Positions 27,107 to 27,712 of a stretch of DNA of 64,000 nt are shown piece by piece; positions within the stretch are counted from its first letter, which is position 1; each line of letters opens with the position of its first letter. The notes beneath the pieces are model-generated. The model saw only the letters and a program-made list of their open reading frames with translations. It searched no databases and had not been told where the DNA came from. The stretch is from assembly GCF_022637455.1 (NCBI RefSeq), contig NZ_CP093341.1:3224001-3288000 (forward strand), written 5' to 3'. This DNA is from Lysobacter sp. S4-A87. GTDB taxonomy: Bacteria > Pseudomonadota > Gammaproteobacteria > Xanthomonadales > Xanthomonadaceae. The position numbers were made by a program, and so were the translations under genes.

Positions 27107-27150
27107 ACAGCCCCCTTTAGTAAAGGGGGCGCCGCGGCAGCGGCAGGGAA
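27107..27150 (+). repeat. Left arm of the inverted repeat flanking rnpB
   Basis: These 44 bases match, in reverse complement, 27669-27712 with one mismatch. Bases 27116-27150 match 27669-27703 perfectly over 35 bases. The arm contains its own palindrome, CCCCCTTTAGTAAAGGGGG, followed by GCGCCGCGGCAGCGGCAGGG. It lies between rsmI and the rnpB promoter. Confidence 0.95.
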
Positions 27151-27175
27151 TTGGGGGCCATTCGGTCGGGGCCCG

Positions 27176-27194
27176 AAGTTTGCACAGCAAACTT
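27176..27194 (+). terminator. Hairpin between rsmI and rnpB
   Basis: AAGTTTGC (27176-27183) and GCAAACTT (27187-27194) form an eight-base-pair stem with an ACA loop, extended by CCC/GGG flanks. It may end rsmI transcription, but no U run follows. A related stem (AGTTGC/GCAACT) sits after rnpB in inverted position. Confidence 0.4.
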
Positions 27195-27218
27195 TGGGGG
27201 TATTCACTGCGAAGGCAG

Positions 27219-27224
27219 TAGAAT
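27219..27224 (+). promoter_or_regulatory. Candidate -10 box of rnpB
   Basis: TAGAAT ends seven bases before the inferred 5' end of the RNase P RNA at 27232, the spacing expected for a -10 box. I see no convincing -35. Confidence 0.5.
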
Positions 27225-27231
27225 CACCACC

Positions 27232-27589
27232 GGCGGAGTCGGCCAGGCAGTCGCGTCATCCCTTCGGGGGTGCCGAGGAAAGTCCGGGCTCCACAGGGCA
27301 CGGTGCCAGGTAACGCCTGGGCGGCGCAAGCCGACGGAAAGTGCAACAGAGAGCAGACCGCCGAACGGCGTCGCAAGACGTGCGTGGTAAGGGTGAAACG
27401 GTGCGGTAAGAGCGCACCGCGAGTCTGGCAACAGACCGGCACGGCAAACCCCACCGGGAGCAAGACCAAATAGGGAGGCAATGCCGCGGCCCGCGGTGTC
27501 TCCGGGTAGGTTGCTTGAGCGTAGCGGTGACGCTGCGCCTAGAGGAATGACTGTCCACGACAGAACCCGGCTTACAGGCCGGCTCCGCC
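27232..27589 (+). ncRNA. rnpB: RNase P RNA (bacterial type A)
   Basis: This is the catalytic RNA that removes 5' leaders from tRNA precursors. The ends pair as the P1 helix: GGCGGAGTCGGCC at 27232 with GGCCGGCTCCGCC ending at 27589. Core blocks are in order: GGCCAGGCAGTCGC, GAGGAAAGTCCGGGCTCC, ACAGGGCACGGTGCC, GACGGAAAGTGCAACAGAGA, GTAAGGGTGAAACGGTG, AGGGAGGCAATGCC and AGAGGAATGACTGTCCACGA with ACAGAACCCGGCTTA. About 358 bases is normal for gammaproteobacteria. Boundaries rest on the P1 pairing. Confidence 0.97.
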
Positions 27590-27593
27590 GCCT

Positions 27594-27660
27594 GCTCTTT
27601 TCGCGCTTCGCGCTCTAAAGAGCCCCAAGTTGCTTGCGCAACTCGGGCCCCAGGCTTTTT
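27594..27660 (+). terminator. Hairpins after rnpB, probable terminator
   Basis: GCTCTTT (27594-27600) pairs with AAAGAGC (27617-27623) around a GC-rich loop. Then CCCAAGTTGC pairs with GCAACTCGGG (27624-27647, one mismatch), followed by CCCCAGGC and a T5 run. Together they probably end rnpB transcription. The exact 3' end of the primary transcript is uncertain. Confidence 0.5.
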
Positions 27661-27668
27661 GCCTCCAG

Positions 27669-27712
27669 TTCCCTGCCGCTGCCGCGGCGCCCCCTTTACT
27701 AAACGGGGCTGT
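27669..27712 (-). repeat. Right arm of the inverted repeat flanking rnpB
   Basis: This is the reverse complement of 27107-27150 (43 of 44 bases; 35 in a row identical). It lies 79 bases after the rnpB 3' end. Confidence 0.95.

Follow-up and report, generated by a model that had tools for sequence, protein, structure and literature searches.

The window analysed here, a 64,000-nucleotide stretch from Lysobacter sp. S4-A87, carries the rnpB gene for the class A RNase P RNA (positions 27235 to 27590, plus strand; RF00010, 315.3 bits), which lies between rsmI (stop codon at 27025) on one side and mraZ (start at 28152) on the other. An earlier note, made from the letters of this DNA, had described a near-perfect inverted repeat framing rnpB as its only gene, with a similar GTT/AAC hairpin just inside each arm. 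This description was confirmed: 27107-27150 and the reverse complement of 27669-27712 are identical at 43 of 44 positions, with 35 consecutive matches and the sole mismatch at position 9, the hairpins are present at 27172-27198 and 27624-27647, and the only gene between the arms is rnpB. Base composition alone predicts about 4e-18 arm pairs of such quality. The match also exceeds what was first reported, with 75-nt arms at 85% identity and a BLAST alignment of 27102-27198 with 27623-27717 (80% over 97 nt). A short heptamer array, (TGGCCCC)n, lies just past the downstream arm at 27739-27766, and an FMN riboswitch is found in the same window at 11450-11637 (RF00050, 80 bits).

Each arm is part of a larger unit made of several hairpins (HP). 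The upstream copy (UP) has its hairpins 1 to 4 at 27109-27198 on the plus strand, as revealed by a profile match, a covariance model score of 106 bits and folding, which places HP1 at 27110-27130, HP2 at 27131-27144, HP3 at 27156-27167 and HP4 at 27172-27198. A fifth hairpin, HP5, follows in the sequence at 27202-27224 (plus strand; ATTCaCTGC/GCAGtaGAAT). The downstream copy (DN) is on the minus strand; its HP5 (GCTCTTT...GCGC ttc GCGC...AAAGAGC) directly follows rnpB at 27594-27623, and its hairpins 4 to 1 occupy 27624-27710 (profile 61 bits, covariance model 83 bits, fold), with HP4 at 27624-27647 and HP1 at 27689-27709. The distal arm of the UP HP5 includes TAGAAT (27219-27224), likely the -10 box of rnpB; species without the UP copy mostly have GACAAT or TACAAT at this position. 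The ends of rnpB themselves form an inverted repeat, because the strands at 27232-27244 (GGCGGAGTCGGCC) and 27577-27589 (GGCCGGCTCCGCC), both read on the plus strand, pair with each other in what we take to be helix P1 of RNase P RNA. As a result of this pairing, the element meets an identical adjoining sequence (GGCGGAGNCGGCC) at both ends of rnpB and, as a speculation, this shared flank may have helped to place the UP copy.

In general, the element is about 90 nt long and has four hairpins, while the variable HP5 links HP4 to the adjoining gene. The order is HP1 (CCCCCTTTAGTAAAGGGGG), a GC-rich HP2 with a short loop, the conserved GGGRATTGGA, a weak HP3 and HP4 (GGGGCCCGAAGTTTGC-n3-GCAAACTTTGGGG). 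The rnpB arms correspond to the best-conserved part of the element, and their near-identity in the window is mostly explained by the conservation of the HP1-HP2 part throughout the family. We built the covariance model from an alignment of 45 diverse copies and analysed covariation in its helices. Cells altered on both sides numbered 48, compared with 12.5±2.6 in shuffles, and the covariation score was 0.280 versus 0.151, a level unmatched in 500 shuffles, while slid structures scored at most 0.10. For example, a C-G pair of HP2 is swapped to G-C in 15 of the 45 aligned copies. HP5 behaves similarly, as its arms vary between species at the same site but keep pairing (0.92-0.98 for a copy's own arms, 0.38-0.76 for arms swapped within a site); at the sX13 site, they read TTTTTATTGCCTGCGT/ACGCAGGCAATAAAAA in one species and TTTATTTCTGGC/GCCAGAAATAAA in another. 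Compensatory base changes, as expected of a conserved structured element, are thus present in these helices. A variant, which has the TTCCAnATCCCC-HP2-HP1 half in common with the other copies but differs in the architecture of the HP4 part, was seen at site 4 (loci L225, L242, L250, L258, L262 and L264) and at site 8 (L233, L238, L244, L259 and L261), and may represent a sister family.

Searching genomes with the covariance model, we found the element in 12/12 genomes of the genus, with 6 to 13 hits each, counting a few weak or opposite-strand ones, and in about 8 distinct places of this genome. In the Lysobacteraceae sample, 34 of 60 genomes matched, with a maximum of 16 hits per genome, and among 141 other genomes of the class a single weak hit was obtained, which doubles as a false-positive control. 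The suggestion of the earlier note that the arms are copies of a dispersed element, one in each direction, therefore holds. The arm search that it proposed across this and related genomes points to a low-copy family, and the case that would have made the pairing coincidental, hundreds of single copies, does not apply. In Rfam 15, no family scored above its gathering threshold at either rnpB copy, and hits elsewhere were at chance level; in the literature covered, which included few subscription journals, we found no description of a Lysobacter or Xanthomonas repeat of such kind, nor of repeats flanking rnpB. The family is thus low-copy, confined to Lysobacteraceae in the genomes searched and previously unlisted. 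A search with mraZ gave names to relatives, of which Lysobacter prati is the closest; the element is also carried, among others, by L. soli, L. niastensis, L. enzymogenes, L. antibioticus and Pseudoxanthomonas species.

The copies of the genus were then sorted into sites by their flanking sequence. Read in the sense of the gene, the arrangement is the end of the gene, then HP5, then HP4, and this orientation, with HP5 and HP4 toward the gene, is fixed. Besides rnpB, the RNA genes bordered in this way include ffs (SRP RNA), sX13 and asX1, and the protein genes include smpB, ppiB, a MerC-like gene, a dehydrogenase-complex E2 gene, gltB, a HerA-like gene, a Glu/Leu-type dehydrogenase gene, ffh, leuS and an alanine dehydrogenase gene. 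In this genome, known non-coding RNA genes account for 4 of the 8 distinct places, with rnpB contributing two. At protein genes, the modelled element mostly lies 14-24 nt away from the stop codon, and HP5 fills this gap, often with the stop codon inside; at sX13 and asX1, it is the U-tract of the terminator that falls inside HP5. The exception to this 3' placement is the UP copy of rnpB, which faces the 5' side of the gene. As the element always faces the gene that it borders, the UP and DN copies run in opposite directions. At a further site (site 2; L183, L189, L202 and others), the element adjoins a conserved GACTTGTCCACAGG...TAACAGGTAGTCCACAGG stretch that is reminiscent of DnaA boxes.

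Considering this placement, the reading that we favour, with a probability of about 0.45, is that the element may act as a transcript boundary at gene ends. On the strand entering the gene (the inward strand), HP4 would behave as an intrinsic terminator, being G+C-rich with a conserved G-U pair and followed by U-rich sequence. HP5 would bring the U-tract of HP4 to face the stop codon of the gene or the U-tract of its terminator, and the result would be a back-to-back (bidirectional) terminator, limiting read-out from the gene and blocking transcription that enters it. An inward-facing terminator placed back-to-back with that of the gene would explain why the two copies at rnpB point at each other, and together they could shield this RNA gene, which is small and essential, from antisense transcription and from read-through out of rsmI.

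Three tests of strand agree in favouring the inward one. First, the non-Watson-Crick positions of HP4 on this strand are G-T (that is, G-U in RNA) in 104 cases against 9 for A-C, a bias that does not represent many independent events because it comes largely from one conserved G-U position. Second, the T fraction after HP4 is 0.36 on the inward strand against 0.11, and TTT occurs within 10 nt of HP4 in 74/167 unique copies against 3/167. Third, the inward strand gives the more stable HP4 in 164 of 187 copies. At L065, a consensus scan indeed reads HP4 followed by GCTTTTTTAG as a terminator on this strand. HP1 shows no such G-U strand bias (0 against 5). In the window, the UP copy is correctly oriented but has no U-tract after HP4 (GGTATTCACTG), which counts against a boundary function, and a simple terminator scan called neither of the two HP4; termination by the UP copy would thus be the weakest step of the proposal. 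Moreover, the gene beyond HP1 is not always oriented in the same way, so that inward transcription should not be expected at every site. We also considered whether the DN copy substitutes for the U-tract of rnpB, and rejected it as the loss was not significant (p=0.15), although the pattern holds at ffs, where TTTT is lost in 9/10 occupied genomes.

The main rival explanation is helped by that same loss, since some other feature must form the 3' end of the ffs RNA. In this explanation, HP5 and HP4 together would work as a 3'-UTR stabiliser similar to REP/BIME sequences, blocking 3'-5' exonucleases after the stop codon or RNA end and thereby defining and protecting the 3' end. The short distance to stop codons and their frequent inclusion in HP5 fit this explanation, as does the niche of REPs, which are found just 3' of genes and near enough to supply stop codons (PMC3733652). 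On the contrary, the RNA of the gene itself has an A-C mismatch in place of the conserved G-U pair of HP4, and both HP4 and HP2 fold better on the strand opposite to that RNA. In addition, the UP copy of rnpB, conserved in the genus, is at a promoter and not at a 3' end, and the canonical terminators of sX13 and asX1 precede the element. We consider stabilisation of this kind a possible function, although a rather doubtful one in view of these points.

Unlikely, in our view, is that we are looking at an old non-autonomous mobile element, REP- or MITE-like, that would have spread to gene ends in the ancestor of the family and would now be mostly decaying, the rnpB pair being two old insertions, possibly favoured by the flank shared through P1. 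The coexistence of empty, decayed and occupied sites speaks for such an origin, as does tandem amplification at rnpB, and turnover of the element is evident. The ffs site lacks the element in this genome (G000) and in G010, and the ppiB site lacks it in six genomes. At the MerC-like site, four alleles are empty and three hold decayed remnants; the remnants at site 6 are those of G001, G007 and G003. As these empty and decayed sites show no obvious harm, the element is dispensable in some genomes. At ppiB, the occupied allele ends in NKTLDANARP* and the others in NKTLDAR*/AK*; both the C-terminus and the stop codon are changed, which also favours insertion, and the genus tree accommodates this pattern only with several losses, gains or exchanges. 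We dropped the notion of HP5 as simply an inverted copy of target sequence, because the stop-containing arm at ppiB does not copy the ancestral end of the gene but takes its place. In G009 (L219), the ppiB end is otherwise empty, but an element of the ppiB-site type is found downstream of it in inverted orientation, which suggests a local rearrangement.

Against mobility, copies cluster by site and not by genome, indicating long vertical inheritance: same-site copies are 0.724 identical across genomes versus 0.566 for copies within one genome, and the nearest neighbour is a copy of the same site in 72 of 92 cases and one of the same genome in 3 of 92. Between species, the elements are 0.71-0.83 identical versus 0.53-0.66 for their outer flanks, so they are conserved above their surroundings, and changes in HP5 are compensated. 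The Y1 transposase (PF01797) is absent from this genome in a search whose controls were positive. Target-site duplications, which the earlier note had proposed to look for, were not recognised at the empty sites, the nearest informative of which lies in a genome about 93% identical in the compared flanks.

At rnpB, all 12 genomes of the genus have both the UP and the DN copy. We also inspected 80 named mraZ loci. Both copies were present in 7, and one more had UP with two DN; UP alone was found in 7, and DN alone as a single copy in 21, double in 5, triple in 1 and quadruple in 2. Loci of rnpB with neither copy, a state that the earlier note had thought worth seeking, numbered 28, rnpB was inverted and armless in 2, and no rnpB was found in the stretch in 6. 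Degenerate UP copies were present at L043, L080 and L098, and two to four elements in tandem were observed downstream of rnpB at L067, L108, L014 and L054, with periods of about 104-162, 149, 155 and 124 nt, respectively. The two inverted genes, in Lysobacter dokdonensis and L. gilvus (L116 1866-2212 and L118 1866-2213), concern rnpB alone between rsmI and mraZ. Two metagenome-assembled genomes (L062 and L071) have (TGTCCTC)n upstream and the complementary (GAGGACA)n downstream of rnpB, a second and unrelated inverted repeat, and a Lysobacter metagenome-assembled genome (L120, 988-1123) has a partial second rnpB, its 3' part (query 216-355), just past the full gene.

UP copies are closest to UP and DN copies to DN, with few exceptions, and the closest match of a copy almost always comes from the same side of rnpB in another species. 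Because the copies group by site and the arms are hardly more alike within genomes (0.885) than between them (0.86), the rnpB pair is old. A recent inverted duplication, gene conversion of the arms, the ends of a mobilised segment, as the earlier note had also proposed, or those of an invertible one are therefore highly improbable despite the 43/44 match, considering that both lineages are common to the whole genus, that many relatives carry just one copy, and that rnpB is co-directional with mraZ in every named locus with both arms, a single orientation that speaks against an invertible switch. Judging from these sequences, the inverted repeat is formed by two old members of a family of multi-hairpin elements; the pair is real, structured and family-specific, and does not appear as a mobilised or invertible rnpB cassette.

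Returning to the boundary function, its interest comes from the genes concerned, as the RNAs of RNase P and SRP are essential and only for few bacteria is it known how the ends of these RNAs are set and how they are protected from transcription of the neighbourhood. Here, one compact, covarying module is reused at such ends across a bacterial family, and its natural empty, decayed, single and paired versions make the question of end setting directly testable. HP5, whose arms change together between species, offers a clean example of structure under selection at gene ends, and the element is a candidate Rfam family. A more ambitious version would see in this new cis-element family a dedicated boundary for core RNA and translation genes (RNase P RNA, SRP RNA, Ffh, SmpB, LeuS, sX13, asX1), acting via the inward strand. 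At rnpB, it would also act through a promoter-overlapping hairpin, and the supply of RNase P RNA would be under the joint control of the 5' and 3' copies; we regard this version as quite unlikely.

Several known systems resemble the element in part. Like REPs and BIMEs, it is a structured extragenic repeat located mostly just 3' of genes, save for the UP copy of rnpB; REPs can also occur in inverted or tandem groups. As published, REPs are 20-40 bp long, have a GTAG or CGTC tag, are usually present in more than 100 copies and are linked to TnpA-REP. Here, on the contrary, the unit has five hairpins over about 90-130 nt and about 8 places in this genome, no constant tag is seen at either end of the aligned copies, the hits number 6-13 per genus genome and at most 16 in the family sample, and no REP-associated Y1 tyrosine transposase was found in this genome. 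Membership of the REP family was therefore rejected on size, tag, copy number and transposase. MITEs are likewise dispersed and non-coding with occupied and empty sites, but the present element is inherited by site, and no terminal inverted repeat with target duplication was seen at the empty ppiB, MerC-like and ffs sites, which are diverged.

In E. coli, rnpB is followed by tandem 113-bp units with terminators, which carry part of the rnpB 3' end. The likeness is that terminator-like units are repeated right behind rnpB, as in those of the present relatives that have two to four tandem copies; however, the elements described here lack the rnpB 3' end, occur at other genes too and are also found upstream of rnpB. 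Finally, bidirectional intrinsic terminators between convergent genes also have a G+C-rich hairpin with a U-tract, which in some of our copies lies on the inward strand and faces the terminator of the gene, but many members have no good U-tract, many are not between convergent genes, and the hairpin is not alone but belongs to a covarying multi-hairpin module.
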